Assembly: GCF_030285785.1 (NCBI RefSeq)
Contig: NZ_CP127247.1
Location: forward strand, 496,001 to 560,000
DNA length: 64,000 bases
Direction of reading: 5' to 3'
Source: Parasedimentitalea psychrophila
GTDB lineage: Bacteria > Pseudomonadota > Alphaproteobacteria > Rhodobacterales > Rhodobacteraceae
Position 1 is the stretch's first letter. Each line of letters starts with the position of its first letter. Made by a program: the position numbers and the translations under genes. Positions 38,686 to 55,757 of the stretch are shown here, in pieces. The notes under the pieces were generated by a model. The model was not told where the DNA came from and did not search any database. It worked only from the letters and a program-made list of their open reading frames with translations.

Positions 38686-40068
38686 GTGCTTCACAACGAC
38701 ATTGCAGACAATCAGCATCAGGCAGATGAACTGCAATGTGGCTTTAAACTGCTGCACGGTCAGTACCAGATCGAAAGCGCCCTGAGCAGCGGTGGCTTTG
38801 GCATCACCTATCTGGCGCGCGACAGTCTGGACCGCCAGGTGGTGATCAAGGAATGCTTTCCCGCCGGGGTCTGCCACCGCAGCCAGGGCATGGTCGAGCC
38901 GGTCTCCGCTCCTTACGCCAGACAATATAAAACCGTGCTGCGCCATTTCCTGCGCGAGGCCCAGTGGCTGGCGCGCTCGGTGCATCCGGGCATTGTCGGC
39001 ATTCATCAGGTGTTTCGCGAAAACAACACCGCCTATATCGCGATGGAATTCGTCGATGGGGTTGATCTGGTCACCCTGCGCGAGCAGCAGCCCGAGCGCG
39101 TCACCGACGCCCTGCTGCAAGACGTGCTGGAACAGGCCCTGGGCATCCTCGCCTTTATCCACGAGCTTGGCATTTTGCACCGGGACATTTCGCCGGACAA
39201 TTTCCTTCTCAGCCCTGACGGCACCGTAACGCTGATCGACTTTGGCGCCGCCAGCGGCGGCCAGGACGACGGCGATGGCACTCTTGATCCCATGCTGTCG
39301 GTCAAGGACGGCTATTCCGCCCATGAGCTGTATCAGTCAGAGATGCCGCACAGGGCCTCAAGCGATCTCTATTCCTTGGGGGCGACCCTGAGTTATCTGG
39401 TGACCTCTGCACCGCCCCCCATCAGCCAGCATCGGCTGGATGCCCTGACCGCAGGCGACCCGGACCCCTGCCTGACGCTGAGTGATGGCTACCGCGATTT
39501 CAACAAGGCGTTTCTGGCCTCCATCGACAAGGCCTTGTCGGTTCTGCCCGGTGTCCGCTACCAATCAGCTTTGGAATGGCTGGATGAATTGCAGGGTGAT
39601 GTGCCCCAGACACAGGCCCAGACACAGGCGCTGGCTATCCGGGCACAGACCCGGGCAACGCGGGCCATCTTCAGCCCCGACGTGGCACCGCTGAAGATCA
39701 GTGCCGAGCTGGAAAACATGCTCGCCTCGCTGGTTGAAAACACCAATAGCGGGCTGGTTCCTGCGGGTCCGGAAACCTCCAAACACCGTCAGGCCAAGCG
39801 GCCTCAGATACAACCTGATCAGCCCGCCAAGCCGCGCCAGCTGGTCGATATTTTTGGCGACCCAATCGGCGACGTCGATCTTTGGCTGCAAGAGCAGGAC
39901 AGCAGCGCCAGCCGGACACAGCCCATGGCGCCACCCGCCGCCGAGGCAGGTCTCTCTGCCCCCCAGCCAGAGCAGCCCCGCAGCCGCCGCAGAAGCCCCT
40001 TCGCCAAATTCATCCTCTTCCCCCTGCGTCGGATTTTTGGCGGCGCCGCCTCTCAACGCAACGACTAG
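38686..40068 (+). CDS. Ser/Thr protein kinase (PpkA/PknB-like)
   Basis: A 460-residue eukaryotic-type kinase. The catalytic domain spans about 25-290 and has an intact set of motifs: glycine loop SSGGFGITYLA, VVIKECFP lysine, HRDISPDNFLL catalytic loop and LIDFGAAS (DFG). The activation segment (GTLDPMLSVKDGYSAHELYQ) carries Thr and Ser residues. A Pro/Gln-rich linker follows. The end is basic and hydrophobic (FAKFILFPLRRIFGGAA) and may lie on the membrane; there is no transmembrane helix. I chose the GTG at 38686, which has AGGGGG upstream; a TTG at 38650 would add 12 residues. It heads the eight-gene cassette; the FHA gene follows after 29 bp. Confidence 0.88.
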   Translation: MLHNDIADNQHQADELQCGFKLLHGQYQIESALSSGGFGITYLARDSLDRQVVIKECFPAGVCHRSQGMVEPVSAPYARQYKTVLRHFLREAQWLARSVHPGIVGIHQVFRENNTAYIAMEFVDGVDLVTLREQQPERVTDALLQDVLEQALGILAFIHELGILHRDISPDNFLLSPDGTVTLIDFGAASGGQDDGDGTLDPMLSVKDGYSAHELYQSEMPHRASSDLYSLGATLSYLVTSAPPPISQHRLDALTAGDPDPCLTLSDGYRDFNKAFLASIDKALSVLPGVRYQSALEWLDELQGDVPQTQAQTQALAIRAQTRATRAIFSPDVAPLKISAELENMLASLVENTNSGLVPAGPETSKHRQAKRPQIQPDQPAKPRQLVDIFGDPIGDVDLWLQEQDSSASRTQPMAPPAAEAGLSAPQPEQPRSRRRSPFAKFILFPLRRIFGGAASQRND

Positions 40069-40097
40069 CCCGCCGCCACCCGCGAAAAGGACCTCCC

Positions 40098-41414
40098 ATG
40101 AAATTCATCAGAGACATCATCGCCGACAAGCGCGAGCAGAACTCTCCCAATAGGGGGCAGGTTGCCGACGCCAGATCAGATCACGACGTCATGGCCTCGA
40201 TCCTGTCGGAAACCGGTCCAGCGACGGATCCCTTTCGTCTGGATAACCGGTTTCAGGTGTCAGAGCCGCAAAGCAAAGCCACCACGGTGCCTGACCAACC
40301 ACCGGTTTCACCCGAAGAAACCCCACTGGCGGTGGCCGAGCCATTTACGGCCCCCGCCAAGCCGCAGCCAGAGCTGGCCTCTATTGGCGACCCCGAGAGT
40401 GATCTTTTGGATGTTGATTTTCAACGCCTTGTGGCCTCGGCCGCGCCCCGGGAACAGGCGCCGCAGGACCGACCATTCAAGCGGTTCACCCGCACCCAAA
40501 CCCGGCTGCGCAGCCTTGATCTGGACCTGCCTGAGGCTCAGCCCGCTGTCGCCGACAGGCCAACACCAGCCCCCGACCAAGCGGCCCAATCACCGGCCCA
40601 GTCACCGGTCCAGCATCCGGCCCCGATACGCCAAAAAGCCGTTGCTCCGGCCCCTGTTGCTCCGGCCCCTGTTGCTCCGGCCCCTGTTGCTCCGGCCCCC
40701 GCTGTCCCGGCTCCAGTGGACCGCGCGCCAGTTGCCCCGCCACCAGTTGCCCAACCTCCGGTAGCCCAGCCACCGGTAGAGCGAGCGCCGCAAAGGGCTG
40801 CACCGGAAACAGCCGTTCAACCCAGCCTTGGCGCCCCAGCACCGCAGGTCGAGACAGCACCGCAGGTCGAGACGGCCAGACCCGATCCGGCCCAGCCCAT
40901 CGACGTGCCCTCACCTGCCATGGGGCGCGGCTCCAGCAAGGCCGGCCGGGTCAAAACCCGTCTGCTGGGATTCAACCCCGGTCAGGCCGCAGGCGCCGAT
41001 CCCTTTGCCCGCGCTGACGACACTGCGACCTCGGGCTACACCCAATACCCCGTCGGCTGGCTGGCAGTGGTCAAGGGTCCCGGACGCGGCGCCACTTTTA
41101 CCCTGTTCAGTGGCGTCACCATCATCGGTCGCGGCGAAGACCAGACCGTGCGGCTGGATTTTGGCGACAACAGTATCTCGCGCGCCAATCACGCCGCCAT
41201 TGCCTTTGATTCTGAGCAGAACAGCTTTTTCATCGGTCACGGCGGCAAGGCCAATCTGGTGCGCCGCAATGACCGCCCGGTTCTCAGCACCGAAGAGCTG
41301 GCGATGGGGGATCTGATCCGCATTGGCGAAACCACCCTGCGGTTTGTACCGCTCTGCGGACCCGAGTTTGGCTGGTCCGAGACCCCACAGAACGAAGCCG
41401 GGCATGGGGCCTGA
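40098..41414 (+). CDS. FHA domain protein with long Pro/Ala-rich linker
   Basis: A 438-residue protein with an N-terminal charged helix (MKFIRDIIADKREQ), a disordered Pro/Ala-rich middle (about 80-310) and a C-terminal forkhead-associated domain (about 325-430). FHA domains bind phosphothreonine. The usual GR is in TIIGRGED, but the SRxH motif reads SRANH, with one extra residue, so peptide binding may differ. The linker DNA holds four tandem 15-bp units at 40641-40700 (PVAPA in protein). Flanked by kinase and phosphatase genes, it is the likely phosphorylation-dependent adaptor of the cassette. It overlaps the phosphatase gene by 11 bp. Confidence 0.85.
   Translation: MKFIRDIIADKREQNSPNRGQVADARSDHDVMASILSETGPATDPFRLDNRFQVSEPQSKATTVPDQPPVSPEETPLAVAEPFTAPAKPQPELASIGDPESDLLDVDFQRLVASAAPREQAPQDRPFKRFTRTQTRLRSLDLDLPEAQPAVADRPTPAPDQAAQSPAQSPVQHPAPIRQKAVAPAPVAPAPVAPAPVAPAPAVPAPVDRAPVAPPPVAQPPVAQPPVERAPQRAAPETAVQPSLGAPAPQVETAPQVETARPDPAQPIDVPSPAMGRGSSKAGRVKTRLLGFNPGQAAGADPFARADDTATSGYTQYPVGWLAVVKGPGRGATFTLFSGVTIIGRGEDQTVRLDFGDNSISRANHAAIAFDSEQNSFFIGHGGKANLVRRNDRPVLSTEELAMGDLIRIGETTLRFVPLCGPEFGWSETPQNEAGHGA
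40641..40700 (+). repeat. four tandem 15-bp repeats in the FHA protein linker
   Basis: GTTGCTCCGGCCCCT is repeated head to tail at 40641, 40656, 40671 and 40686 (last copy with one change), encoding VAPAP units. The frame is kept whatever the copy number, so length variation between strains is possible. A second, 2-copy 15-bp duplication (QVETA) lies near 40846-40875. Confidence 0.9.
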
Positions 41415-42345
41415 GCTCCAGTTCACTTATGATGCCGCCACCGCAATCAGCCAGGGTCGGCGCGAACGGCAGGAAGATGCCGTTGCCTCGGATTTCATGG
41501 CCGGTGCCGGGCTGGGATTTGCGGTTCTGGCAGATGGTATGGGCGGCCATGCCGCCGGGGACATTGCCAGCAAGATCGTGGTCACCGAGGTGTTCAGCGA
41601 GCTGAAATTCCGCGCCGATGCGCCGCAACAGTTAGAGGCGCAGATCACTCAGGCCCTCTCTGCGGCGGCGCGGGCGGCCAATGACTGTGTCGGCCATTAC
41701 GCCGCCCAGAACGCCAGCGCCGACGGTATGGGGGCCACCCTTCTGGCGCCGGTGCTGTTTCAGGACCGGCTGTACTGGATCTCGGTCGGCGACTCGCCGC
41801 TGTATCTGTTTCGCGACGGTGAACTGATGCGGCTGAATGATGAACACTCGCTTGCCGCGCAGCTGGATGCGCGCGTGACGCAGGGGTTGATGTCGCTTGA
41901 ACAGGCCCACAACCATCCTGACCGGGCCTGCCTGACCTCGGTGCTGTCCGGTCAGGACATTGCCCGCATCGATTGCCGCAGCACCGCCTTTACCCTGCGC
42001 CACCGAGACATCGTGATCGCCGCCAGCGACGGCTTGCAATATCTGGAGGACAGCATGATTGCAGAGGTCCTGACCGCCCGGCAAGACCAGTCCAGCAGCG
42101 ACATCAGCGCCGCGCTGATGGGCTGCCTGCACCACTTGAACGACCCGGAACAGGACAATATCTCGTTCTGCGTCATCAAGGTCTCGGATCAGCTCAAGGC
42201 TGCGACACCACAGGCGCAGCCCGCCAAACCGCCGATCCAGCCGCAGGCTTCAAAGCCGAAATCCAACACCATCACCATCATGGCCTCGGCCTCCAGATCC
42301 AAAGGCATCACCTCTTTTCATATCGTGAATGGCGACAGCGCATGA
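41404..42345 (+). CDS. PP2C-family protein phosphatase
   Basis: A 313-residue metal-dependent Ser/Thr phosphatase. Motifs: GRRERQEDA (first metal aspartate), AVLADGMGGHAAGD, DGMGATLLAPV, WISVGDSPLYL, VIAASDGLQYL, and PEQDNISFCVIKV (last metal aspartate). A C-terminal tail of about 60 residues (Pro/Gln-rich, then SRSKGITSFHIVNGDSA) is extra to the fold. It should reverse the action of the adjacent kinase. The ATG at 41404 lies inside the FHA gene; its stop overlaps the next gene by four bases. Confidence 0.9.
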   Translation: MGPELQFTYDAATAISQGRRERQEDAVASDFMAGAGLGFAVLADGMGGHAAGDIASKIVVTEVFSELKFRADAPQQLEAQITQALSAAARAANDCVGHYAAQNASADGMGATLLAPVLFQDRLYWISVGDSPLYLFRDGELMRLNDEHSLAAQLDARVTQGLMSLEQAHNHPDRACLTSVLSGQDIARIDCRSTAFTLRHRDIVIAASDGLQYLEDSMIAEVLTARQDQSSSDISAALMGCLHHLNDPEQDNISFCVIKVSDQLKAATPQAQPAKPPIQPQASKPKSNTITIMASASRSKGITSFHIVNGDSA

Positions 42346-43568
42346 CACATCCAGACCCAATCCAAAGCCCCTTGTTCGGCCAGTTGCAACAGGCGCTGAG
42401 CCAGCAGGGCTTGCCGCAGGAGTACTTTGATTGGGGCCAGCAGCTGTTGCAACGGCTGGACAAGCCGGTGCAGGTCATGGTCATCGGCTACCCCGGCAGT
42501 GGTAAATCGACGGTGATCGACATGATGTTGGGCCAGTCGGTGATTTGCCGCCACGCCGCCGCCATTCCAGCCCACATAACCGCCCCCATAATCGAAGTCT
42601 GCTATGGCCCCGAAGCCCGTATCGAAATCGAGGCGCCAGACGGCAGAACCAGCTGGCATCCCGGCACCCTCGCCCAGACTGCCCTGCCGCCCGACACCGT
42701 TCGACTGCGGCAAGAGCTGCCCGGCACCCGGCTGCAAACCCACAGCTTTGTCGAGATCTCGCTCTCTGGTTCAGCCGAGCAAAACCATAACATCCTGCAA
42801 CGCGCTGCCCGCCATGCGGATGTCATCCTGTGGTGCAGCGAGGGTTTCACCCCGGCCGAGCAGAGCCTGTGGGCGACGGTTCCAGACGCAAAAAAGGACC
42901 ACAGCTTTCTGGTGCTGACCATGGCCGATCGCCAGATCATGCGCGGCACCTTGACCAGCCTGCTGGCCGGGCTGGATGGCTTTGCCGCCGAGCAATTTCT
43001 CGGCGTCTACCCCCTGGCCGCGGTTCAGGCCATCACCGCACAGACCGCCGACCACACCGTCAACGCCCAGCTGTGGCAGTCCAGCGGCGGCAGGCAGCTG
43101 GCCCGTGATGTGCAAAAGCAGGTCGAACTGGGGCGTGCCTCGGACGTGGATCAGGCCGAAATGCTGGTGCGCCAGTTCGCCCCCAAAGTCGCGGATCAAC
43201 AGTGGCAGCAAACCCCGCCTGCCCCCAAACCAGACCCAACGCCACAGAACACGCCAACCGACGCGTTTCTGCACACCGCGCTGGACCTGTTGCAGGGCCG
43301 TGCCCGTCAGATGCTGGCCGAGACCGACGGCGCCGCAAATGCCGATGCGATCCTTTCAACCTGTATGGACACCGTCAAGGACCTGTCCAAAACCCTTCTG
43401 GCGTCGCAAAACCGCTCGCCACAGGTGCAGGCGGCGCTGGACGGCGCGCAGGACGGCGAAGAGCTGCTGATCCTGTTTCAGCTGGAACGCGGTGAGGACG
43501 CCGCCATAGATGCGGTCACTTTACTGCTGCAACTAAAGAGAGAGATCGCCGATGACATCTCTCAGTAA
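42342..43568 (+). CDS. dynamin-like P-loop GTPase with degenerate G3
   Basis: A 408-residue P-loop protein. G1 is VMVIGYPGSGKST (about residue 47), and a threonine in AHITAPI is a possible G2. The expected DxPG of G3 is absent; the equivalent strand reads VEISLSGSAEQN. The G4 position reads VLTMADR instead of NKxD. After the nucleotide domain (to about 225) comes a Pro-rich linker and a helical C-terminal region. It probably binds nucleotide but may hydrolyse it poorly, and could be a regulatory partner of the two GTPases that follow. The start overlaps the phosphatase stop (ATGA). Confidence 0.7.
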   Translation: MTHPDPIQSPLFGQLQQALSQQGLPQEYFDWGQQLLQRLDKPVQVMVIGYPGSGKSTVIDMMLGQSVICRHAAAIPAHITAPIIEVCYGPEARIEIEAPDGRTSWHPGTLAQTALPPDTVRLRQELPGTRLQTHSFVEISLSGSAEQNHNILQRAARHADVILWCSEGFTPAEQSLWATVPDAKKDHSFLVLTMADRQIMRGTLTSLLAGLDGFAAEQFLGVYPLAAVQAITAQTADHTVNAQLWQSSGGRQLARDVQKQVELGRASDVDQAEMLVRQFAPKVADQQWQQTPPAPKPDPTPQNTPTDAFLHTALDLLQGRARQMLAETDGAANADAILSTCMDTVKDLSKTLLASQNRSPQVQAALDGAQDGEELLILFQLERGEDAAIDAVTLLLQLKREIADDISQ

Positions 43569-43607
43569 CCCCCGCTGTAATCACCATCGCCATTGGGCCA
43601 GATTCTC

Positions 43608-45671
43608 ATGAACATGCAGCCACAGATCGACAGAACGACCAATATTCATGCCGCCGCGCGCCCGGCCAATCTGAACGCCGGGATGGAGCCGCTTGCCGAG
43701 CTGGCCACCCAGATGGCCGAGCTGGACGGCGCACTGGAGGCTTTGGCGGGTCAGACCGGCGACAAGGCGCAGCGCACCCTGTTGCGCCTGAACAAAGAGC
43801 TGGCCGGTTTTGAGCCCTGCATCACCCTGTTGGGACAGGTGAAATCCGGCAAGACCTCGCTGGTCAACGCGATGGGCGGCTGGGCTGACCTGCTGCCTTC
43901 GGACGTCAATCCCTGGACCTCGGTTGTGACTTCGCTGCACCTGACGCCGGGCGATGCCCGGGTTGAAACCAGTGCCCGTTTTCAGTTCATGACCGAGGCT
44001 GAATGGGACCGGTTGCTGACCAAGGGCGGTCGCATTGGCGAGATGGCGGGCCGGGCTGGGGCCGAAGGTGAGCTGGCGAAAATCCAGGCCCAGATCGAAC
44101 AGATGCGCGAGCGGTCGCGCAACCGGCTGGGCCGCAAGTTCGAACTGCTGATGGGGCAGACCCATGAATACGAGTATTTCGACAAGAACCTGATCGAACG
44201 CTATATCTGCCTTGGCGATGATTTTGATCTTGAGTCGGGCATGGAGGGCGAGGACAGTCAGGGCCGGTTTGCCGATATCACCCGCTCGGCCGATCTGTAT
44301 CTGAACAGCCCCACCGTGCCCATTGCTCTGTGCCTGCGCGATACTCCCGGTGTCAATGACACCTTCATGATGCGCGAACAGGTGACCATTCAGGCGATCC
44401 GCGACAGCCGCATCTGCGTGGTGGTGCTCTCTGCCAGTCAGGCGCTGACCTCGGTGGATATGGGGCTGATCCGGATGATCTCGACCCTGAAATCGCGTGA
44501 GGTGGTGATCTTTGTCAATCGCATCGACGAACTGGCGGACCCGGCCAATCAGATCCCCGAGATCGAGGCCAGCATCCGCCAGACATTAGACAGCCACCAC
44601 GGACCCAAGGAGGCCGAGATCATTTTTGGCAGCGCCTATTGGGCCGGGAAAGTGCTGACCGGTGAGCTGGAGGAGATGCAGGGCGCCAGCGGTGCCGCCT
44701 TGCTGAACTGGGCCAAAGTCGGGCTTGCCGCCGCCAACCCCGATCAATCGCCGCAGGATATGGCCTGGGCACTGTCTGGCCTGCCGGAGCTGCTCCGCTC
44801 TATTTCAAACCGCATCGTCAAGGATCTGGGCGCCCCCCTGCTGGCCCGCGTTGCCAGCTCGGCCATCACCATGACCACCGGCCAACAGGCGGCCCATGCG
44901 GTGATGATCCGTGGCTCCAAACCCGGCGCGGCCCTGAACATGCGCGACATCGAAACCCGGTTCGAACAGATCGTCACCTCCCAGATGGCGGCGCTGGAGG
45001 ATGAAATCGACGCGGTGTTTGACGCCTTTCGCCAGCGGGCGGACCGGGCCCATGCCACATTTGTAAACCGCGCCACCCATTCGCTGATCGACCATCTGGA
45101 ACGCTGGGGCGAAGCCTGTGTTTGGGAATATGATGCCACCGGGCTGCGGCTGCTGCTGAAATCGGCCTATTCGGTGATGACCAGCCGGGTGCAGGCCACT
45201 GCCCTGGCGCGCTATGAACTGGCCGTGCAAGAGGTGGCCGGGCTGCTGTATGCAGGGTTTGGCACGGCGGTGGAGGGCATTCAGATTTCGGTACCCGAGG
45301 CGCCAACAGTGCCCTCTCCGGTAGCACTGGGTCAGACAATTGCATTGGATTTCAATGACAACTGGTGGAGTTCCTGGTGGCGGCGCACCCGGGGTTACAA
45401 GGCCTTTGTCAAAAACTTCCAACAGCTGATCTGCGGTGAAACCGAGGATTTCATGACCCAGCTCAAGCAGGTTCAGACCGCCGATACCCGCGCCAGCACC
45501 CTTGCCGGATTACAGATCTTTTTTGAGGACCAACGCAATATCTTAATGGAAATCGCCGATCACTGTCGACAGGACCAGGACGTTCAGGACCTTTTCGCCA
45601 GCCAAGGGCAACAGCAACGACAGGATATAACGCAGGCCGCGTTGACCACCCTTGGAAAATATACCGCATGA
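43608..45671 (+). CDS. large dynamin-like GTPase
   Basis: A 687-residue protein with a complete GTPase set: G1 LLGQVKSGKTSL (about residue 80), G2 threonines in NPWTSVVTS, G3 CLRDTPGVNDTF (about 248) and G4 VIFVNRIDEL (about 308). A helical stalk with FRQRADRAHATFVNR and other heptad-rich stretches occupies about 430-560. Near 585 a Trp/Arg-rich segment, NDNWWSSWWRRTRGYKAF, looks like a membrane-inserting paddle, and a final helical bundle follows. Bacterial dynamin-like proteins remodel or stabilise membranes. ATG at 43608 was chosen over a TTG five codons earlier. It overlaps the next GTPase gene by four bases, as often seen for paired dynamin-like genes. Confidence 0.82.
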   Translation: MNMQPQIDRTTNIHAAARPANLNAGMEPLAELATQMAELDGALEALAGQTGDKAQRTLLRLNKELAGFEPCITLLGQVKSGKTSLVNAMGGWADLLPSDVNPWTSVVTSLHLTPGDARVETSARFQFMTEAEWDRLLTKGGRIGEMAGRAGAEGELAKIQAQIEQMRERSRNRLGRKFELLMGQTHEYEYFDKNLIERYICLGDDFDLESGMEGEDSQGRFADITRSADLYLNSPTVPIALCLRDTPGVNDTFMMREQVTIQAIRDSRICVVVLSASQALTSVDMGLIRMISTLKSREVVIFVNRIDELADPANQIPEIEASIRQTLDSHHGPKEAEIIFGSAYWAGKVLTGELEEMQGASGAALLNWAKVGLAAANPDQSPQDMAWALSGLPELLRSISNRIVKDLGAPLLARVASSAITMTTGQQAAHAVMIRGSKPGAALNMRDIETRFEQIVTSQMAALEDEIDAVFDAFRQRADRAHATFVNRATHSLIDHLERWGEACVWEYDATGLRLLLKSAYSVMTSRVQATALARYELAVQEVAGLLYAGFGTAVEGIQISVPEAPTVPSPVALGQTIALDFNDNWWSSWWRRTRGYKAFVKNFQQLICGETEDFMTQLKQVQTADTRASTLAGLQIFFEDQRNILMEIADHCRQDQDVQDLFASQGQQQRQDITQAALTTLGKYTA

Positions 45672-46627
45672 CGCAGGAGACAGCCATGCCAAGCCCCGAC
45701 AGCCCCCCCTCCGCCCCCCAGCGCAAGCCGCGCCTGGCGCTCATGGGCGAATTCAGCGCCGGTAAAAGCACCCTGACCAACCTGCTGGTCAGCCGACAGA
45801 TCCTGCCCACCCGTGTCACCGCAACGCGGCTGCCGCCGGTGTGGATATCCTATGGCGACGACGCGGCCTTTGTGGTGGCAACCGACGGCACCCAGACGCC
45901 AGTCGCGCTAGAGGATCTTGGCGAGATCCAGATGGAGAGCACGGCGATGATACGGCTGTTCTTTCCCTCCGATGCGCTGACCCTTTGCGATCTGATCGAC
46001 ATGCCAGGGATTTCCGACCCAAACATGGAGCCCGAGGTCTGGCAATCGCTGATGCCCGAGGTGGACGGGGTGATCTGGTGTACCCATGCAACCCAGGCCT
46101 GGCGCCAGTCCGAGGCGGCGGTCTGGGATCATATTGCCGAGACAGTGACCGGCCCCAACATCCTGCTGGTCACTCATTTTGACAAGCTGTGCAACGACCG
46201 GGACCGCAGCCGGGTGGTGGCCCGGGTCGCTAGGGAAACCGGCGCGCTGTTCGACAGGATCTTTCCGGTGTCCCTAAGCCAGGCCCTGCAGGCGGGTGAT
46301 GACATCGAGGCCTGGAAGGCCAGCGGCGCCGACAGGCTTGTTGAATTTCTGGTTGAAACGCTGCTCGACAGACCCCTGTCCACTGCGGCTGCTGCCATGG
46401 CAACCGGTGAACAGACCGCCAGTGACCGCTCCCCCGAGGAGATTATGCAGGCCGAGGTCTTTGCCATTGGTGACATTCGCGACATCGCCGAGCCGGAGCA
46501 CGACGACCCAATCAACCCGGATTCTGCCCCGGCTGAGGACTATGTGGTGCCCCGCCGCGTCAAGGCCGAAAGGCGGGGACAGCGCAGGGTCGATCGTCAC
46601 CCCAGATTGGCAACGCATGATGAATAA
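45668..46627 (+). CDS. dynamin-like GTPase, small
   Basis: A 319-residue GTPase: G1 ALMGEFSAGKSTL (about residue 30), G2 threonines in TRVTATRLPP, G3 CDLIDMPGISD, G4 LLVTHFDKL. The nucleotide domain ends near 230; a low-complexity acidic then very basic tail (VPRRVKAERRGQRRVDRHPR) follows, which could bind acidic lipid or RNA. GEFSAGKST is the classic P-loop of bacterial dynamin-like and Era-like families. The start overlaps the large GTPase gene, suggesting that the two work as a hetero-oligomer. Confidence 0.82.
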   Translation: MTQETAMPSPDSPPSAPQRKPRLALMGEFSAGKSTLTNLLVSRQILPTRVTATRLPPVWISYGDDAAFVVATDGTQTPVALEDLGEIQMESTAMIRLFFPSDALTLCDLIDMPGISDPNMEPEVWQSLMPEVDGVIWCTHATQAWRQSEAAVWDHIAETVTGPNILLVTHFDKLCNDRDRSRVVARVARETGALFDRIFPVSLSQALQAGDDIEAWKASGADRLVEFLVETLLDRPLSTAAAAMATGEQTASDRSPEEIMQAEVFAIGDIRDIAEPEHDDPINPDSAPAEDYVVPRRVKAERRGQRRVDRHPRLATHDE

Positions 46628-46669
46628 GGCGCGCCAGCCAGCCGGGCGGTGCCTCTGCGGGGGCCCCAG

Positions 46670-47059
46670 ATGGACATAACCGCACGGCTGGATTCCCTGC
46701 GCAAGACCACTGCCGGATGTGGCCTGGTTGCCTTTGGTGATCTCGGCACCCGGCTGGTGCTGCGCAGCAGTGCTGCCGTTCAGCACCGGCAAGAATATCT
46801 GGACCAGCTCTGCGCCCAGGCCGAGCATGGGTTTCACCTGCAGGATGCCCTTGCAGCTCCGATCACCGCGCCCAGCGGTGGCGCCGCCACGGTGATCGTC
46901 GTCACGCCGCAGGAAACCCGGATATATATCCGCAGGCCCGGCGCGACAGCCTCCACCGCAAACGATGCCATTCTAGCGGTCTGTGACAATGAGCACAGCG
47001 CCCAGGCTCTGGTGGCCCCGGCAATGAGCTTGCTGAGCGACCTGTCCGAGGGGGCATGA
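46670..47059 (+). CDS. small roadblock/LC7-like protein
   Basis: A 129-residue soluble protein. The pattern LDSLRKTTAGCGLVAFGDLG, then VLRSS, a helix with QEYLDQLCAQA, a second sheet VIVVTPQETRIYIRR and a closing helix resembles the roadblock/LC7 fold (as in MglB), whose members regulate small GTPases. The resemblance is by eye and weak. The ATG at 46670 is preceded by GGGGG; a GTG at 46649 is possible. It overlaps the last gene of the cassette by four bases. A GTPase-regulating role next to three GTPase genes is inference. Confidence 0.55.
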   Translation: MDITARLDSLRKTTAGCGLVAFGDLGTRLVLRSSAAVQHRQEYLDQLCAQAEHGFHLQDALAAPITAPSGGAATVIVVTPQETRIYIRRPGATASTANDAILAVCDNEHSAQALVAPAMSLLSDLSEGA

Positions 47060-47853
47060 TGTCACCTTTGAACGCAGAACAATTGGCCGGACAGGACAAC
47101 ACCACCAGCCCCCTGCGGGCGCTTCTGATCCGGCTTTGCGCCGATGTCTCGGGGCTGCAGGGAGAGCGACGCGATGCCGCCCAGGGGCGGGCCAACCTGA
47201 TGGGCAGCCTACTGGCTGAAATTGATGAGACCATATTGCCCCGGCAGTTGACCTTGTATTTTGATCAGGTCGTCGTTGCCAGATTGCGGGTCAGCCAGCG
47301 CAGGCTGCTGTCGCTTGAACTTGCCAGTGACATTGGCCCAGCGGATCACGCTGGGCTGACCTCCACTGTGCAGGTCTACGCGCAGCAACTGCACCACCTG
47401 TCGGCCAGATACCAGGGCACCGGCTTCCGGATCACCCGGCAGGTCTGTGAGACTGGCATAGAGACTGAAAGCTGCTCGGCGTCTCAACTGGCCGAAAGCC
47501 TTGCTTCGCAGCAACAGGACAGCCGGCTGGAACGGCTGCTGACCATGATCGGCGCCTCGGCTGACGCCTGGGCTTTGCAGGCTGAAACCGCCGGTCAAAA
47601 CCGCAGTCACGGCCCGGCCCCATTGGCCCGCCAGCTTATGGATCTGGCCGCAACCGATCGGGCCGCAAAGCAGAAAAATGGCCACGCCCTGAGGCTGCCG
47701 GACAAGACCCCGCACTATCTGCTGCTGTCGATATCCAGTGAGATAAAGCTCATTGTCGCCTGCGACCAGACCGAGACCTTGCTGATTGCCTTACCCGTCC
47801 AGCATCTGGCAGCTGCGGATGCAGCCTGGCACATGGTTTTCTCCGCGCCGTAG
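47056..47853 (+). CDS. hypothetical protein closing the kinase-GTPase cassette
   Basis: A 265-residue protein that I do not recognise. It is soluble, with an N-terminal helical region (about 15-60), a beta-rich stretch (LTLYFDQVVVARLRVSQRR, about 65-85), a helical middle and a C-terminal beta pair (HYLLLSISSEIKLIVACDQT, then LLIALPVQHL) like the sheet of a roadblock or profilin-like fold. No signal peptide or transmembrane segment. Its ATG overlaps the previous stop, so it is translated with the cassette. A hairpin terminator follows at 47899. Confidence 0.6.
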   Translation: MMSPLNAEQLAGQDNTTSPLRALLIRLCADVSGLQGERRDAAQGRANLMGSLLAEIDETILPRQLTLYFDQVVVARLRVSQRRLLSLELASDIGPADHAGLTSTVQVYAQQLHHLSARYQGTGFRITRQVCETGIETESCSASQLAESLASQQQDSRLERLLTMIGASADAWALQAETAGQNRSHGPAPLARQLMDLAATDRAAKQKNGHALRLPDKTPHYLLLSISSEIKLIVACDQTETLLIALPVQHLAAADAAWHMVFSAP

Positions 47854-47898
47854 CCAGCGGCCCAGCCCCCCCCTTCTCCCGACCTGATCCGACCCGAA

Positions 47899-47916
47899 AC
47901 CTGCCTTCTGGCAGGT
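47899..47916 (+). terminator. hairpin after the kinase-GTPase cassette
   Basis: ACCTGCC (47899-47905), loop TTCT, GGCAGGT (47910-47916). It lies 46 bases past the last stop of the cassette and about 90 bases before the first gene of the next operon, so it separates the two transcription units. No T-run follows. Confidence 0.55.
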
Positions 47917-47963
47917 CCGGAAAAGGGTTTTCCGTTGACAAGGTTTGACGTCGCGCAATACCA

Positions 47964-47975
47964 TTAGCATACGAA
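47964..47975. promoter_or_regulatory. candidate operator, site A of a shared 12-bp motif
   Basis: TTAGCATACGAA, imperfectly palindromic (TTnGnATnCnAA), 32 bases before the start of the FAD-subunit gene. Its reverse complement TTCGTATGCTAA differs at one position from site B (56958-56969) and at four from site C (58568-58579). Position just upstream of the ribosome binding site suggests repression. Confidence 0.5.
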
Positions 47976-48006
47976 CAACTTTTCAATCGCCCGAGGAGCA
48001 GGGATT

Positions 48007-48840
48007 TTGGCCTATTTCGCCCCAACCACGCTGAACGACGCGCTGGCCCTGATCGCCTCGGAGACCGTCAGCATCATTGCAGGCGGCACCGATGTCTTTC
48101 CCGCGCAGGGTCAGACCCCGTTGCAAGAAAGCCTATTGGATGTCACCCGTATCGACGGGCTGACGGGGCTGCACTGGGGCCCAGATGGGCTGCGCATCGG
48201 CGCCGCAACGCGCTGGAGCGAGATCGCCAACGCCGATCTTCCCGATGGCTTTGCCGGCTTGCAGGCGGCGGCGCGCACGGTGGGCAGCGTGCAAATCCAG
48301 AACGCGGGCACCATTGCCGGCAATATCTGCAACGCCTCTCCGGCGGCGGATGGCATGCCGCCGCTGATAACGCTGGGGGCCGAGGTCGAGATCTCCGGCC
48401 CCGATGGACCCCGCCGAATGCCGGTAGAACAGTTTGTGACCGGCCCGCGTCAGATCCAGTTGGGCGCTCGCGAACTGGTGACGGCCATTCTCATCCCGCC
48501 GCTGCCAGCCCATTGTCGCGCGGCGTTTGAGAAACTGGGCAGTCGCACATATCTGGTGATCTCCATCACCATGGTGGCGGTGGTGATTGGCTGTGATGCC
48601 ATGGGCCGTATTGATTTTGCCCGCGTCGCAGTCGGCGCCTGCTCGCCGGTTGCCCAACGACTGATGGGGCTTGAGGCGGATCTGATCGGGCAAATGCCGC
48701 AGCAGGTCACGGTCAGCCCTGACCATCTGGCACCACTGGCGCCGATCACCGATATTCGCGCCGATGGCGGCTATCGGCTGGAGGCGGCGGCCGAACAAAT
48801 CAAACGAGCAATTGGCAAGGCAGCGGTTTCAAATGGATAA
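48007..48840 (+). CDS. molybdenum hydroxylase FAD-binding subunit (CoxM-like)
   Basis: A 277-residue FAD subunit of the xanthine dehydrogenase/CO dehydrogenase family. SIIAGGTDVFP and TVGSVQIQNAGTIAGNICNA are the pyrophosphate- and FAD-binding motifs, and the CO dehydrogenase-type C-terminal domain follows from about residue 165. Passes electrons from the Fe-S/Mo subunit to an acceptor. The start is TTG at 48007 with GAGGAG 11 bases upstream; no ATG fits. It overlaps the next gene by eight bases. Substrate assignment comes from the neighbouring hydroxynicotinate reductase and enamidase genes. Confidence 0.88.
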   Translation: MAYFAPTTLNDALALIASETVSIIAGGTDVFPAQGQTPLQESLLDVTRIDGLTGLHWGPDGLRIGAATRWSEIANADLPDGFAGLQAAARTVGSVQIQNAGTIAGNICNASPAADGMPPLITLGAEVEISGPDGPRRMPVEQFVTGPRQIQLGARELVTAILIPPLPAHCRAAFEKLGSRTYLVISITMVAVVIGCDAMGRIDFARVAVGACSPVAQRLMGLEADLIGQMPQQVTVSPDHLAPLAPITDIRADGGYRLEAAAEQIKRAIGKAAVSNG

Positions 48841-51589
48841 GCAGGTCTTACACCCGATGACAGAATTTCGCCTGAACAGCCAGAATGTCAGCGTCACCCC
48901 GCTGGCCGGAGAGCGCCTGTCGCAGACCCTGCGCGAAAAACTTGGGCAGCGCGATGTCAAAGTCGGCTGTGATGCGGGTGATTGTGGGGCCTGTACGGTG
49001 CTGATCGACGGTGCGCCGGTCTGTGCCTGCCTGACCCCAACCCATCAGGCCGATGGGCGGAACGTGGAAACGCTGGCTGGGTTGGCCACTGGTGACCCGG
49101 ACGCCCAGCGCCTGTCGGAGAGCTTTCAAAACCACGGGGCGGCGCAATGTGGCATATGCACCCCCGGCATGATGGTTGCGGCGGTGGCACTACTGCGCGA
49201 AACGCCGACACCGACTGATGGTCAGGTCAAGGATGCATTGGGCGGCGTGCTCTGTCGCTGCACCGGCTATCGCAAGATCATTGATGCGGTACTGGCCAGC
49301 CATGCCCAGATCCCCACCGGCGCTGAGGTGGGTGATGGTGCCGTCGGGGCCTCTATCCGGCGGCTGGATGGCGCGGCCAAGGTCAGTGGAACCGAGATGT
49401 ACGGCGACGATGTTGCCCCGGCTGATGCGCTGGTGCTGCGGGTCATCCGCTCACCCTTTGCCCATGCGGGGTTTACCTTTGGTGACTTGCAGCAATGGCA
49501 GGCCCAGACCGATGGTATCGAGGCGGTGTTAACCTGCGCAGATATTCCGGGTCAGAATGTATTTGGCGTCATCCCGGATTTTGCCGACCAGCCGGTGTTT
49601 GCCGAGGGCACAGCCCGGTTCCGCGGCGAGGCCATCGCCGCCGTTGTTGGGCGCGCCGATGTCATGCAGGTCTTTGACGCCAGCACATTCCCGGTGGACT
49701 GGAGCGAATTGCCCAGCGTCGAGAGTGTGGCCACAGCGACCGCGCCGCTGGCGCCGCAACTGCATCCGGGTCGTGACAACAACCTGATGTGCAGCGGGTT
49801 TGTCCAGCAGGGAGATGCGGCGCAGGCTGCGGCAGGCGCAGATGTCTGTGTCGAGGGCCAGTTTCAGACCGGGTTTGTCGAACACGCCTATATCGAACCG
49901 GAGGCGGGCTTTGCGCAGATCATAGATGGCCGGGTCGAGGTGCACGCCTGCACCCAGGCCCCGGTGATGGATCTTGACGCGCTGGAGATCATTCTGGGCA
50001 TGGACCGCAAGGATATCCGCATCCTGCCCACCGAAGTCGGTGGTGGTTTTGGCTCAAAGCTGGATCTGTCGGTGCAGCCCTATCTGGCGCTGGCGGCACT
50101 GCGCACGGGGCGGCCGGTGCGGATCACCTATAGCCGCTCGGAATCGATGCAATCGACCACCAAACGGCATCCCTCAAACATTCAGCTGAAAATCGGCGCC
50201 AACCGGGATGGGCGCATTCAGGGCTTTGACTTTTCCGGCGATTTCAACACCGGCGCCTATGCCAGTTGGGGCCCAACCGTATCCAACCGGGTGCCGGTGC
50301 ACGCCTCTGGCCCCTACCGCATCCCGAACTACCGGGCCGAGGCGCGGGCGATCCACACCCATAACCCGCCGTCAGGTGCCTTTCGTGGTTTCGGAGTCCC
50401 CCAGGCCGCCATCGCTCAGGAAAGTCTGTTTGACGAATTGGCGGATAAGCTGGGCATCGACCGGCTGCAATTTCGCCTGCTGAATGCGCTGGAGGACAAC
50501 GCCCCCACGGTCTGTGGTCAGGTGTTTGAACAAGGTGTTGGGGTCAAGGCCTGCCTATCAGCGCTGCAACCGGCCTGGGAGGTTGAGCGCGCAGCGGCAG
50601 CCACGTTTAATGCGGTCAACAAGACCCATAAGCGCGGCGTCGGCATCGCTGCCGGCTGGTATGGCTGCGGCAATACCTCGCTGCCCAATCCCTCGACCAT
50701 CAAATCGGGCATCCGGCCTGATGGCACCGTGGTGCTGCATCAGGGCGCGATGGATATCGGTCAGGGGGCCAATACGGTGATCACCCAGATCTTTGCCACC
50801 GCCCTGGGCATTCCGGTGCGCCAGATCCAGCGGATTGGCGCCGACACCGATGTCACCCCGGATGCGGGCAAGACCTCGGCCTCGCGCCAGACCTATGTGT
50901 CGGGCAATGCTGCAAGGCTGTCCGGTCTGGCCCTGCACGCTGCGATCCTGAAGCGGGTCAATGCCAGTGATGGCGCCAAGCTGGAGTTTAGCACTGGAAC
51001 AATCCGGGTTATCGACGGCGCCAGCGAACACCGGATCAACCTGTCGGCGCTGTCGCATGACGGCGAGGGCTATGTATTTCGCGCCGAGGAGACCTATGAT
51101 CCCCCCACCAAACCGCTGGATGCAAACGGTCAGGGCAGCCCTTATGCGCAGTTTGGCTATTGTGCGCAGCTGGTGGTGGTCGAGGTGGACAGCCTGCTGG
51201 GCACGGTGACGCCAATCCGGTTTGTCGCCGCCCATGACGTGGGCAAGGCAATCAATCCAATGCTGGTCGAGGGTCAGGTCGAGGGCGGCATTGCCCAGGG
51301 CCTGGGCATGGCCCTGATGGAGGAATACATTCCGGGCCGCACCGAAAACCTGCATGATTACCTGATCCCCACCATCGGCGATGTGCCGCCAATTGAAACG
51401 ATCATTGTCGAGGTCCCGGACGCCCATGGCCCCTACGGTGCCAAGGGGCTGGGTGAGCATGTGCTGATCCCCACGGCTCCGGCCATTCTGAACGCCATCA
51501 AAGACGCCGTGGGCGTGCGACTGACACAGGTTCCCGCCACTCCCGCGCGTGTTCGGGCCGCAATCAAGGACTTGACCGATGGCAACTGA
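48833..51589 (+). CDS. fused [2Fe-2S]/molybdopterin hydroxylase subunit (nicotinate dehydrogenase-like)
   Basis: A 918-residue fusion of two subunits that are separate in most relatives. Residues about 8-160 form the iron-sulfur part: first cluster GCDAGDCGACTVLIDG, second cluster CGICTPGMM and CRCTGY. Residues about 170-918 form the Mo-binding part with GGGFGSK, AFRGFGVPQ, DIGQGANTV and AKGLGEH, whose glutamate is the catalytic base of this family. It should insert a water-derived hydroxyl next to ring nitrogen, such as nicotinate to 6-hydroxynicotinate. ATG at 48833 is used; one at 48857 is possible. It overlaps the reductase gene by 11 bases. Confidence 0.85.
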   Translation: MDKQVLHPMTEFRLNSQNVSVTPLAGERLSQTLREKLGQRDVKVGCDAGDCGACTVLIDGAPVCACLTPTHQADGRNVETLAGLATGDPDAQRLSESFQNHGAAQCGICTPGMMVAAVALLRETPTPTDGQVKDALGGVLCRCTGYRKIIDAVLASHAQIPTGAEVGDGAVGASIRRLDGAAKVSGTEMYGDDVAPADALVLRVIRSPFAHAGFTFGDLQQWQAQTDGIEAVLTCADIPGQNVFGVIPDFADQPVFAEGTARFRGEAIAAVVGRADVMQVFDASTFPVDWSELPSVESVATATAPLAPQLHPGRDNNLMCSGFVQQGDAAQAAAGADVCVEGQFQTGFVEHAYIEPEAGFAQIIDGRVEVHACTQAPVMDLDALEIILGMDRKDIRILPTEVGGGFGSKLDLSVQPYLALAALRTGRPVRITYSRSESMQSTTKRHPSNIQLKIGANRDGRIQGFDFSGDFNTGAYASWGPTVSNRVPVHASGPYRIPNYRAEARAIHTHNPPSGAFRGFGVPQAAIAQESLFDELADKLGIDRLQFRLLNALEDNAPTVCGQVFEQGVGVKACLSALQPAWEVERAAAATFNAVNKTHKRGVGIAAGWYGCGNTSLPNPSTIKSGIRPDGTVVLHQGAMDIGQGANTVITQIFATALGIPVRQIQRIGADTDVTPDAGKTSASRQTYVSGNAARLSGLALHAAILKRVNASDGAKLEFSTGTIRVIDGASEHRINLSALSHDGEGYVFRAEETYDPPTKPLDANGQGSPYAQFGYCAQLVVVEVDSLLGTVTPIRFVAAHDVGKAINPMLVEGQVEGGIAQGLGMALMEEYIPGRTENLHDYLIPTIGDVPPIETIIVEVPDAHGPYGAKGLGEHVLIPTAPAILNAIKDAVGVRLTQVPATPARVRAAIKDLTDGN

Positions 51590-53069
51590 ACGCATGACCC
51601 CCGCCAAAATCCGCTGTGACGCCTGCCCGGTGATGTGTTTCATCGCCGAGGGCAAAATCGGCGCCTGTGACCGCTATGCCAACCACGGCGGCGATCTGGT
51701 GCGGCTGGACCCGCTGACCATCATTGAAAACACCAGCCACAAGCTGGTGCCGTTTATGAAGGACAGCATGCCCGAGGACTGGGACGGAAATATCGTTCAG
51801 GGTGATCGCCCCTTTGTCACCGCCGTCGGCGCTGGCACCACCTATCCCGACTACAAACCGGCGCCGTTCATCGTCAGTCAGGAAATTGATGGCGTCGATA
51901 TGGTCACCGTGGTGACCGAAGGCATCTTCTCGTACTGCGGGGTGAAGGTGAAGATCGACACCGACCGCCACATTGGTCATGAGCGCGACGTGGTGCGGGT
52001 GGGCGGCGAGCCGATCGGTCATGTGATGACCAGCGAATACGGATCAAAAATGCTGTCACTGGGCGGCGTCGAGCACCTGACCGGCGGCAGCAAGAAAGAA
52101 GGCCGGATGACCTGTGATGCGCTGCTGCGCCTGTGCAACCGCGAACCGGTAGAGATGCAGATCGGCGAAGAGGATCACACAACGACCCTGGTGGTTGAGG
52201 CTGGCAAGCCGCCACTGGTCAACGGCATGGAAGAGAAACTGATGCGGGTGGGTTGTGGATCGGCGACCATCGGCATGTTCCCCAAGCAATGGGTTGGCCA
52301 TGTGGACGAGGTGGTGGTGGTGGATGACCATATCACCGGCGTGTTGTCCGAACACCAGACCGGCAAGATGCTGGAGGTGGCGCCGACCGGCATCAAGATC
52401 AAGGGCCGCAAATCTACCCCCGGTCGCTATTTTCAGGTGGCCAAACCCGGCACCGGTTGGGGCGGCACCGATATCGAGGACCCGCTGACCATTCTCGGCC
52501 CCTTCAACCCCAAGATCGCCTGGGAGGGTCTGAGCCTGCTGATGGTCTCTACCACCGGCGAGCAGTTTGGCTATTTTGTGCTGGACGCCGACCTGATGCC
52601 GCAACCAGCCGAGATCCCTGCCCGGCTCAAGGCCTCGGCGGATCTGATTGCTGAGAACTGTGAGCCCTCAATCTGTTCGGTGCTGTTCATGGGCGGCGCC
52701 GGTGGCAGCCTGCGCGCCGGGGTGACGGAAAACCCGGTGCGGCTGACCCGCTCGGTCAAGGACTCGCTGACCTTTGTGTCCTGCGGCGGTGCCGAGAGCT
52801 ATGTCTGGCCCGGCGGCGGCATCACCGTGATGGTGGATGTGCTGGATATGCCCACCGGATCATTTGGCTATGTGCCCACCCCGGCGCTGGTGGCACCGAT
52901 TGAATTCACCATGCGGGTGGCCGATTACGCCACTCTGGGCGGCCATATGGATGAGATCAAAAAGGTCTCGTCCATCGTGTCGGCTGAGACCCGCAAGATT
53001 GCGCAGCGTGACAGCCAGCCGGACCCGATGGACCGTACCAATTATCGCTGGGCAAAGGAACGCCGCTGA
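51579..53069 (+). CDS. hnr: 6-hydroxynicotinate reductase homologue
   Basis: A 496-residue homologue of the E. barkeri enzyme that reduces 6-hydroxynicotinate to 1,4,5,6-tetrahydro-6-oxonicotinate with ferredoxin electrons. The N-terminus has the [4Fe-4S] motif CDACPVMC plus GACDRYANHGGD. MRVGCGSATIGMFPKQ near residue 222 includes a GSAT like the acceptor motif for covalent FMN. The rest is a two-domain alpha/beta enzyme (SICSVLFMGGAGGSLRAGVT near 365). It is translated with the hydroxylase (11-bp overlap) and with the ApbE-like protein (TGATG). I rely on remembered family features and gene order; substrate could be a related pyridine. Confidence 0.82.
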   Translation: MATERMTPAKIRCDACPVMCFIAEGKIGACDRYANHGGDLVRLDPLTIIENTSHKLVPFMKDSMPEDWDGNIVQGDRPFVTAVGAGTTYPDYKPAPFIVSQEIDGVDMVTVVTEGIFSYCGVKVKIDTDRHIGHERDVVRVGGEPIGHVMTSEYGSKMLSLGGVEHLTGGSKKEGRMTCDALLRLCNREPVEMQIGEEDHTTTLVVEAGKPPLVNGMEEKLMRVGCGSATIGMFPKQWVGHVDEVVVVDDHITGVLSEHQTGKMLEVAPTGIKIKGRKSTPGRYFQVAKPGTGWGGTDIEDPLTILGPFNPKIAWEGLSLLMVSTTGEQFGYFVLDADLMPQPAEIPARLKASADLIAENCEPSICSVLFMGGAGGSLRAGVTENPVRLTRSVKDSLTFVSCGGAESYVWPGGGITVMVDVLDMPTGSFGYVPTPALVAPIEFTMRVADYATLGGHMDEIKKVSSIVSAETRKIAQRDSQPDPMDRTNYRWAKERR

Positions 53070-53926
53070 TGCCTCCCGTCGCCCGTATCCTGTCCTGCGG
53101 CACCCGGTTGCATTTGCAACATGGGCCGATTGATCTGGTGATCGGCGCGGATGGGGATCGGGCAACGGCTTTTGCCGCGGCTGAGGCGCGGTTTGCAACT
53201 GTGCTGGAGGAGCTGGTCACCGAGTTGCCGCTGTTGAAATCGCAGCTTTTCGCCAAGTCTCCCCGCCCCAAGGGTGGCATCGCCCAGATCATGGATCGCG
53301 CCACGCGGCCCCATTGCAGTGCCTTCATCACCCCGATGGCGGCGGTGGCCGGGGCGGTGGCGGACACGGTTTTGGCCGCAATGCGCGTGGCCACGCCGCT
53401 ACAGCGGGCCTATGTCAACAATGGCGGCGATATCGCCCTGCACCTAAGCCCCGGACAAAGCTTTGCAACGGCCATGATGGATCATCAAGGGTATGATCTT
53501 GGCCGTATCGAGATCACCCATGCGGACGGGATCGGCGGCATCGCCACCTCAGGCCGGCATGGCCGCAGCCTGTCGCTGGGCATTGCCGATAGTGTCACGG
53601 TGCTGGCCGCCAGCGCCGCACAGGCGGATGCCGCCGCCACCCTGATCGCCAATGCGGTGGACCTGCCCGGTCATCCCGCCATTCACCGCCTTGCCGCCGA
53701 CCAGTTGCAAAGCGACAGCGATCTGGGCGACCAGCCGGTGGTCACCCAGTGTCAGCCGCTCTCAGCCACCGAAATCCACACCGCCCTGCAAGCCGGCGCC
53801 CATCGGGGCTTGGACATGATGCACTCCGGCCATATCATTGCCGCAGCTTTGTTTTTGCAGGGCGACAGCAGGTTGATTGGCCACACCGGTTTCACCCCAT
53901 CCATTAGGACGCAGTTATATGCCTGA
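53069..53926 (+). CDS. UPF0280 family protein (ApbE-like)
   Basis: A 285-residue UPF0280 protein. The family is related to ApbE, the FAD:protein FMN transferase. Seen: GPIDLVIGADGDRATAFAAA near the N-terminus, MAAVAGAVADTVLAAM (about 89-104) matching the ApbE-type helix, YVNNGGDIALHLSPG (about 117-132, the NxGGD motif) and GIATSGRHGRSLSLG (about 155-170, the ATSG motif). Gene order directly after the reductase suggests that it attaches flavin to that enzyme. This is inference; the family has no firmly assigned reaction that I know of. Confidence 0.8.
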   Translation: MPPVARILSCGTRLHLQHGPIDLVIGADGDRATAFAAAEARFATVLEELVTELPLLKSQLFAKSPRPKGGIAQIMDRATRPHCSAFITPMAAVAGAVADTVLAAMRVATPLQRAYVNNGGDIALHLSPGQSFATAMMDHQGYDLGRIEITHADGIGGIATSGRHGRSLSLGIADSVTVLAASAAQADAAATLIANAVDLPGHPAIHRLAADQLQSDSDLGDQPVVTQCQPLSATEIHTALQAGAHRGLDMMHSGHIIAAALFLQGDSRLIGHTGFTPSIRTQLYA

Positions 53927-54500
53927 TTTACAAATCCGAAAGATCATCTCATCCCGCGAAGAGGTCTACCACGAAGGCGGCCCGGTCGCCGCGACCCCGC
54001 TGTTGCGCGGGGCTATTCTGGCGGTGATCAAGAACCCCTTTGCCGGCCGCTATGAGCCCGAGATCCAGGGCTTCATGGAAGACCTGAAACCACTGGGACT
54101 GGAGATGGCGCAGCGGCTGCTCGACATGTTGGGCGGCGCCGACAAGATCCAGGGCTATGGCAAGGGATCGCTGGTTGGCGAAGGCGGCGAGCTGGAGCAT
54201 GGCGCCCTGTGGCATGCGCCGGGGGGCTATGCCATGCGCCAGCTGCTGGGCAGCGCCAACGCCATTGTGCCATCGTCGAAAAAGGTCGGCGGCGTCGGCG
54301 CCCGGCTGGATGTGCCGATCACCCATATCAACGCCGCCTATGTGCGCAGCCATTTTGATTCAATGGAGGTCGGTTGCAACGATGCGCCCCGCGCGGGTGA
54401 GCTGGCATTTGCCCTGGTGATGACAACTGGTCCAAGGGTGCATTCGCGCTCTGGCGGGTTGGAGGCCTGGGACATCAAGGGTGAGGATGGATTACGATGA
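53919..54500 (+). CDS. DUF1185 (amino acid synthesis family) protein, copy 1
   Basis: A 193-residue protein of DUF1185, structurally characterised in Bordetella but of unknown reaction. LQIRKIISSREEVYHEGG, AVIKNPFAGRYEPE, GEGGELEHGALWHAPGG, VPSSKKVG and INAAYVRSHFDSMEV are family-typical. ATG at 53919 lies eight bases inside the UPF0280 gene. About 45 percent of positions look shared with the next gene, so the pair arose by duplication and may form a heteromer. It may act on the ring-opened aldehyde or its tautomer, but this is a guess from gene order. Confidence 0.8.
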   Translation: MPDLQIRKIISSREEVYHEGGPVAATPLLRGAILAVIKNPFAGRYEPEIQGFMEDLKPLGLEMAQRLLDMLGGADKIQGYGKGSLVGEGGELEHGALWHAPGGYAMRQLLGSANAIVPSSKKVGGVGARLDVPITHINAAYVRSHFDSMEVGCNDAPRAGELAFALVMTTGPRVHSRSGGLEAWDIKGEDGLR

Positions 54501-55081: not shown

Positions 55082-55160
55082 ACAGGACTTGCAAGATCAC
55101 GGGGAGAGAGCGGCCACCATCGCCGCGACCTCTGCGTGATCGACATTGCCCGTCGGCCTC

Positions 55161-55178
55161 ATTCGTACTAACACGAAT
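55161..55178. promoter_or_regulatory. inverted repeat before the marR gene
   Basis: ATTCGT (55161-55166), six bases, ACGAAT (55173-55178), 11 bases before the marR start. An 18-bp dyad of this form is typical of MarR operators and suggests autoregulation. Its left half (TTCGTA followed by CTAA) resembles site A of the shared motif with two bases missing. Confidence 0.45.
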
Positions 55179-55189
55179 AAAATTCGGGA

Positions 55190-55642: not shown

Positions 55643-55702
55643 GGGCCTAAACAGCGCCCATTGGTTGCCAGTTCGCCCGGTGGCAAGCCGGGCAGCGCCC
55701 GA

Positions 55703-55719
55703 CCCTCCCCACGGGAGGG
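55703..55719. terminator. hairpin between convergent marR and enamidase genes
   Basis: CCCTCCC (55703-55709), loop CAC, GGGAGGG (55713-55719), with an outer GCGCCC/GGGCGC pairing possible. It lies between two convergent stops and may serve both. Confidence 0.55.
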
Positions 55720-55757
55720 CGCTTTGCACCCACCCAGGGTCAGGCGCTACCCTTGGA

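Follow-up and report, generated by a model that had tools for sequence, protein, structure and literature searches.

An eight-gene cassette of Rhodobacteraceae joining a kinase-FHA-phosphatase trio to dynamin-like and roadblock-type proteins

Eight genes of the alphaproteobacterium Parasedimentitalea psychrophila, located at positions 38686-47853 of the 64,000-nucleotide stretch of contig NZ_CP127247.1 that was analysed here (the window), form a cassette that almost certainly represents one functional unit. The eight open reading frames (ORFs) all lie on the plus strand and encode, in order, a Ser/Thr kinase, an FHA protein, a PP2C-type phosphatase, the GTPase-fold proteins G1, G2 and G3, a small protein with a modelled Roadblock/LC7 fold (RB) and a last protein (ORP). 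The individual parts are of known kinds, while their combination, and the link between dynamins and a kinase-FHA-PP2C circuit, are new as far as can be checked: no published description of this composition was found in the open-access literature, in line with an earlier note on this DNA, made from the sequence alone, which likewise knew of no such system.

Conservation and architecture of the cassette

A scan of genome contigs yielded 80 related loci, all from Rhodobacteraceae in the broad sense, and profile searches of these loci found the eight families in identical order and on the same strand in 68 of them. In eleven of the 12 incomplete loci, the contig breaks off where the missing genes would lie; in the remaining one (L048), RB was not detected. 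This recurrence, seen in many marine Rhodobacteraceae, places the arrangement far beyond chance. The earlier note had proposed the co-occurrence of all eight families as a check, which the 68 ordered loci bear out, and had named two outcomes that would speak against a common system, namely a kinase trio and GTPases that are seldom together, or tss genes that always accompany them; clearly neither is found. The stand-alone system that it postulated agrees with the present data, in that the unit is conserved and not linked to type VI secretion.

The distribution of the cassette was followed in a family sample of 198 evenly drawn genomes, 51 of which gave a G2 match, strong in 48. G2 and G3 are neighbours in every one of these 48 genomes. 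Of the 47 genomes examined, 27 have the full set of eight genes within ~8 kb and 30 have the kinase-FHA-PP2C trio together with G2 and G3, in both cases with the window in addition; several others are cut by contig ends. Samples of 337 genomes of the class and 349 of the phylum returned matches in members of the family only, although remote relatives might escape such a search. Plasmid-borne copies are present in Leisingera and Ruegeria. Beyond close relatives, the flanks of the 80 loci hold no ninth conserved gene, save for a two-component/LuxI set found in 17 loci.

In the window, the successive junctions between the genes measure +29, -11, -4, +39, -4, +42 (or +21) and -4 bp. The eight co-directional genes, with all seven junctions either overlapping or no longer than 42 bp, had been described as such before, and the ORF coordinates agree. 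When compared with the locus of Parasedimentitalea denitrificans (L009), all eight genes have ratios of non-synonymous to synonymous substitution rates (dN/dS) of 0.11-0.27, values which indicate that purifying selection acts on each of them. The G+C content of the cassette is 62.7% vs 59.9% for the window, and composition thus gives no mark of foreign origin.

From the comparison of loci, the cassette can be described as a regulatory module (kinase-FHA-PP2C, often with G1) joined to an effector module (G2-G3-RB-ORP), because divergent loci separate or rearrange both gene sets. The two modules face each other in locus L142, the order is G2-G3-RB-ORP-G2'-G1-kinase-FHA-PP2C in L125 and L143, and in genomes G003 and G168 the kinase-FHA-PP2C(-G1) set occupies a genome site separate from the dynamin genes. 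Of the 198 genomes of the family sample, 40 have the FHA protein, and G2 is present in 38 of these vs 10 of the 158 FHA-negative ones (Fisher p ~6e-29, a value that overstates the strength of the association, since the test assumes independent genomes and these are related by kinship). The persistence of this co-occurrence at separate loci is evidence of shared function that adjacency alone would not give. Among the 10 genomes with G2 and without the FHA protein, three (G022, G098 and G159) are 84-89% complete and have G2 loci cut by contig ends. The converse situation, FHA protein without G2, is seen in G146, where the contig stops shortly past PP2C, and in G184, which carries kinase-FHA-PP2C and a short G1-like remnant. 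The latter locus (L210:6735-11671) is possibly a decayed cassette, no G2 match being found in that genome.

Products of the eight genes

The first gene (38686..40068, plus strand, as are all those that follow) has a GTG start and encodes a Hanks-type Ser/Thr kinase of 460 amino acids (Pfam Pkinase 9e-28). Its catalytic motifs GGFG, IKE, HRD and DFG are all present, and the earlier reading of an intact kinase therefore stands. In the C-terminal tail, which has a basic/hydrophobic end, a VDIFGxPI-D segment is frequent among relatives and lost in the most distant ones. The FHA protein (40098..41414, 438 amino acids, Pfam FHA 7e-6) has, according to the alignment, a long variable linker ahead of a C-terminal FHA domain. 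The PP2C-type Ser/Thr phosphatase (41404..42345, 313 amino acids, Pfam PP2C_2 4e-13) is Stp1-like, matching the NCBIfam Stp1 model at 7e-41, under the equivalog cut-off. The three proteins, whose identities had been assigned in the same way before the Pfam comparison, are found together as in the threonine phosphorylation pathway of the type VI secretion system (T6SS).

Upstream of the FHA domain, the FHA protein carries the motif RVKTRLLGF (40947..40973). Measured to the point where the Pfam FHA match begins, the distance is 48 residues from the end of the motif and 54 from its Thr. Of 77 full-type FHA sequences, 70 contain the motif without any change, and in 19 FHA sequences of both locus types K-T-x-x-x-G-F (K286, T287, G291 and F292) is invariant, as is R284. 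The KTRLLGF site occurs once in the genome, no protein besides the FHA protein carrying one. Thr287 (codon 40956-40958) is a candidate phospho-acceptor.

Three genes follow for proteins of the GTPase fold. G1 (42342..43568) is a short protein with a Dynamin_N match of 1e-4, under the Pfam cut-off; G2 (43608..45671, 687 amino acids, Dynamin_N 7e-12) is a large dynamin-like protein; and G3 (45668..46627, 319 amino acids, Dynamin_N 2e-11) is a short dynamin-like GTPase with a basic C-terminal tail. All 81 G2 sequences keep the P-loop, DTPG and NRxD, and 79 of them have an ALD..WWxxWW motif at the C terminus. The solved chains nearest to G2 are the Cj-DLP pair (5owv_A, 3e-9) and BDLP (2j68, 1e-8), the profile match covering the N-terminal region. 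For G3, a strict pattern finds the P-loop in 75 of 81 sequences and D-PG in 67, and the window copy has an intact P-loop and DMPG. G2 and G3 thus correspond to a dynamin pair, understood as two adjacent genes of the dynamin superfamily with intact G1 and G3 sequence motifs (motif names, distinct from the proteins). The proteins G1 and G3 are paralogous (BLASTP 4e-7). In G1, DxxG is missing from 80 of 81 scored sequences and the P-loop is retained in 78; because the former is lost while the latter stays, G1 is probably a nucleotide-binding pseudo-GTPase. Of the three P-loop dynamin-like GTPases originally described, G2 and G3 are consequently kept as such, whereas G1 is probably not a working one. 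A G1 homologue (L141:7691-8926) is publicly annotated as 'zeta toxin family protein', a label that is probably a P-loop-based misannotation.

RB (46670..47059, 129 amino acids, alternative GTG start at 46649) was modelled with AlphaFold2 from 47 sequences, with a predicted local distance difference test score (pLDDT) of 91 and the roadblock order of elements. Foldseek matched the model to 3kye, a Streptomyces roadblock protein, at 5e-5, and the structural comparison gave a VIA Z of 13.8 over 117 residues at 2.7 A; other fold matches include Ragulator subunits and MglB (Z ~12.7). As modelled, RB has the Roadblock/LC7 fold, alpha-beta-beta-alpha-beta-beta-beta-alpha, and the roadblock-like nature first proposed for this small protein is upheld. 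Membership is by fold only, since none of the 47 members matches any Pfam family at 0.01. ORP (47056..47853, 265 amino acids) likewise belongs to a family that Pfam does not recognise and had been regarded as an orphan. In its AlphaFold2 model (37 sequences, pLDDT 85), the C-terminal half (~151-265) has the roadblock element order and matches MglB, Rag CTD and other roadblock chains (E ~1e-3, Z ~7, root-mean-square deviation ~4 A), so that it is probably a second roadblock/longin-type domain and ORP probably not an orphan. The N-terminal half has no assignable fold within the model of the whole protein.

Some further features were recorded around these genes. Past the last gene of the window cassette, a 7-bp inverted repeat (ACCTGCC/GGCAGGT, 47899-47916) was spotted by eye, the terminator scan giving no hit there, and a promoter-like site (47935-47964) lies ahead of the next gene. 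In locus L127, an ORF for an AAA/ABC-type ATPase (7086-8303) lies between ORP and the dynamin pair, and L130 has an ORF of the same cluster in the corresponding position. Loci L144 (plasmid of Rhodobacter sp. CZR27) and L123 (genome G153) lack the kinase trio and instead contain two or three dynamin-like pairs in tandem; in L144, genes for a histidine kinase, DUF6781 and an AarF/UbiB-type protein come after the array.

Proposed mechanism and alternative explanations

The gene content suggests a dynamin pair switched by phosphothreonine and assisted by roadblock regulators, a proposal whose chances of being correct are judged to be about even. G2, with a predicted stalk-like C-terminal half, and G3 would act as a pair on the cytoplasmic side of the inner membrane, together with RB and the roadblock-type domain of ORP, which would either make up the GTPase assembly or control it. 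The kinase and the PP2C phosphatase would act on the FHA protein, whose invariant Thr in K-T-x-x-x-G-F is the likely phospho-acceptor. Two states are envisaged: either the FHA domain would be occupied by the phospho-Thr of its own protein, or it would be available to G1, the probable pseudo-GTPase, or to the GTPase assembly, and by binding there would license or block the assembly. Candidate outputs are envelope repair, vesicle output and defence, as in the earlier note, and polarity; for phage defence, the generic kinase matches are the sole positive support.

The input would probably be an envelope or periplasmic condition, because in related loci the kinase is a transmembrane protein and two secreted proteins of LysM/solute-binding-like type are encoded beside it. 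Divergent kinases with a transmembrane segment are those of L083, L138, L142 and L143, and one or two secreted LysM-like/solute-binding-3-like proteins follow the kinase module or sit inside it in L125, L138, L142 and L143. Those of the variant loci L142 and L143 have signal-like N termini, the corresponding gene spans being L142:19436-21780 and L143:28078-30491. As to the two-component/LuxI set, 17 full-type loci from several genera (L023-L025, L028-L035, L038, L040, L041, L044, L065 and L084) adjoin a response regulator, and most of them also genes for a LuxI-type autoinducer synthase and a sensor histidine kinase, in varying orientation. On the G2 tree these loci do not group together but are spread over it, with 8 label changes. 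These neighbours could provide a quorum or two-component input. Taken together, the LysM/solute-binding and LuxI/two-component neighbours suggest an extracellular or periplasmic input. Neither kind of partner accompanies the window copy, and when the same genome was searched for a counterpart of that histidine kinase, only generic histidine kinases were obtained.

Several points weigh against the proposed switch. Phosphorylation, FHA-GTPase binding, heterotypic dynamin assembly, the membrane site and the input signal are the elements of it that we infer. RVKTRLLGF is constant beyond its Thr and may for this reason serve for docking and not for phosphorylation. According to its hydropathy, the kinase of the window has no transmembrane helix; the surroundings of the 80 full-type loci are all devoid of a LysM/solute-binding gene, and the search of the own genome for such a sensor gave a LysM-level match only. 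Moreover, seven sampled genomes have G2-G3 relatives and no detectable FHA protein, which implies that the pair is able to work without the kinase module.

Four other explanations have to be set beside the phosphothreonine switch. That the cassette is a T6SS threonine phosphorylation pathway which has strayed from the tss genes, and to which the GTPases are accessory, is suggested by the likeness of the kinase-FHA-PP2C trio to PpkA-Fha-PppA (PMC3953482) and by the presence of TssC on another contig of the same genome. This contig (C3) has two TssC-type matches at ~45596-60146 and so probably encodes a T6SS; the cassette lies on C1. Across the family sample, TssC occurs in 45 of 198 genomes, 15 of the 48 cassette genomes vs 30 of the 150 others (p = 0.12); it is missing from 33 of the cassette genomes, the association is not significant, and the loci have no conserved flanking family, beyond close relatives, apart from the two-component/LuxI set. 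A role in T6SS regulation, largely refuted by this genome co-occurrence, was rejected and is regarded as highly improbable, and the absence of a tie to secretion genes, initially read from the window, also holds across genomes, where TssC does not track G2. An anti-phage or conflict system, in which the dynamin pair would damage or seal the membrane upon infection as in multi-gene defence cassettes, would fit a distribution that is patchy within the family (48 of 198 genomes), the plasmid copies in Leisingera and Ruegeria, the variable flanks and the generic PADLOC kinase matches (PD-T4-6 and mad6). However, PADLOC-DB 2.0.0 contains no model for the combination and returned no described multi-gene defence system, the kinase matches being generic and the GTPase matches weak; no homologue was found in phage or viral-contig collections; and the flank clusters shared by multiple loci are metabolic or two-component/LuxI, with no known defence gene among those inspected. 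A defence function is therefore considered unlikely. A prophage or viral origin of the cassette was rejected as well, on the absence of homologues from the phage collection and the viral contigs.

The resemblance of the RB fold to MglB (Z 12.7), together with a match of G2 residues 583-680 to CrfC (NF007368, 8e-6), raises the question of a polarity, division or nucleoid-positioning module, either MglA/MglB-like or with G2 acting at the replication clamp in the manner of CrfC. Yet no Ras-like MglA partner is encoded in the operon according to Pfam, the GTPases are of the Dynamin_N type, and the CrfC match is weak and far under its cut-off; a core cell-cycle role is further disfavoured by the absence of the cassette from most genomes of the family, and this explanation is not expected to be the right one. 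The last alternative is that the cassette controls secretion or the release of outer-membrane vesicles, a role proposed for the dynamin-like LeoABC of enterotoxigenic Escherichia coli (PMC4159319). Weak matches to LeoA/LeoBC profiles were obtained for G2 (3e-9) and G3 (0.002), but they span mainly the GTPase region and thus indicate the superfamily only. We know of no kinase-FHA module associated with LeoABC, and a role of this kind appears rather improbable.

Relation to known systems and significance

In bacteria, dynamins commonly work in pairs encoded by one operon (PMC6104087), and G2-G3 resemble the paired dynamin-like proteins (Cj-DLP1/2, PMC6104087; BDLP; DynA/DynB; LeoABC) in being encoded by adjacent dynamin-like genes. 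Unlike these pairs, the cassette has a short G3 and a third, short member, G1, without DxxG, and adds a kinase-FHA-PP2C module and roadblock-type proteins. With the PpkA-Fha-PppA pathway it shares a neighbouring Hanks kinase, FHA protein and PP2C phosphatase, and differs from it in having no secretion genes. In the FHA proteins OdhI and GarA of actinobacteria, a Thr ahead of the FHA domain controls this domain, and the cassette similarly combines a Ser/Thr kinase with an FHA protein bearing a Thr motif before its FHA domain. In the GlnH-GlnX-PknG-OdhI cascade, a periplasmic binding protein feeds the Ser/Thr kinase and the FHA protein (PMC9769921); periplasmic binding-type proteins occur only in the variant loci of the cassette, none being near the window copy. 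In contrast to the OdhI/GarA cascade, the cassette has no link to 2-oxoglutarate dehydrogenase and possesses a dedicated PP2C phosphatase and dynamins. The RB fold, and the position of a roadblock protein beside GTPase genes, recall MglA/MglB and other Roadblock/LC7 regulators (PMC9481161, PMC11016934), whereas the partners in the cassette would be dynamin-type rather than Ras-like and RB and ORP are not seen by Pfam.

The triggers of bacterial dynamin-like proteins are largely open, most of these proteins being known merely as operon pairs. By gene order and co-occurrence, the cassette connects a dynamin pair with three signalling proteins, namely a kinase, a phosphatase and a reader of phosphothreonine. 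It might tentatively, with the balance of probability somewhat on the other side, be a member of an undescribed class of membrane-remodelling machines, in which a dynamin-like pair is assembled with a pseudo-GTPase and two proteins of roadblock type, while a kinase-FHA-PP2C circuit that reads the periplasm acts as the switch. If this is true, it would be, to our knowledge, the first bacterial dynamin system under reversible Ser/Thr phosphorylation. Furthermore, the cassette would add two roadblock-type families beyond Pfam recognition, tied to dynamins rather than to Ras-like GTPases. The regulation of bacterial membrane remodelling thus becomes testable in cultivable members of the family, such as Leisingera, Shimia and Roseovarius.

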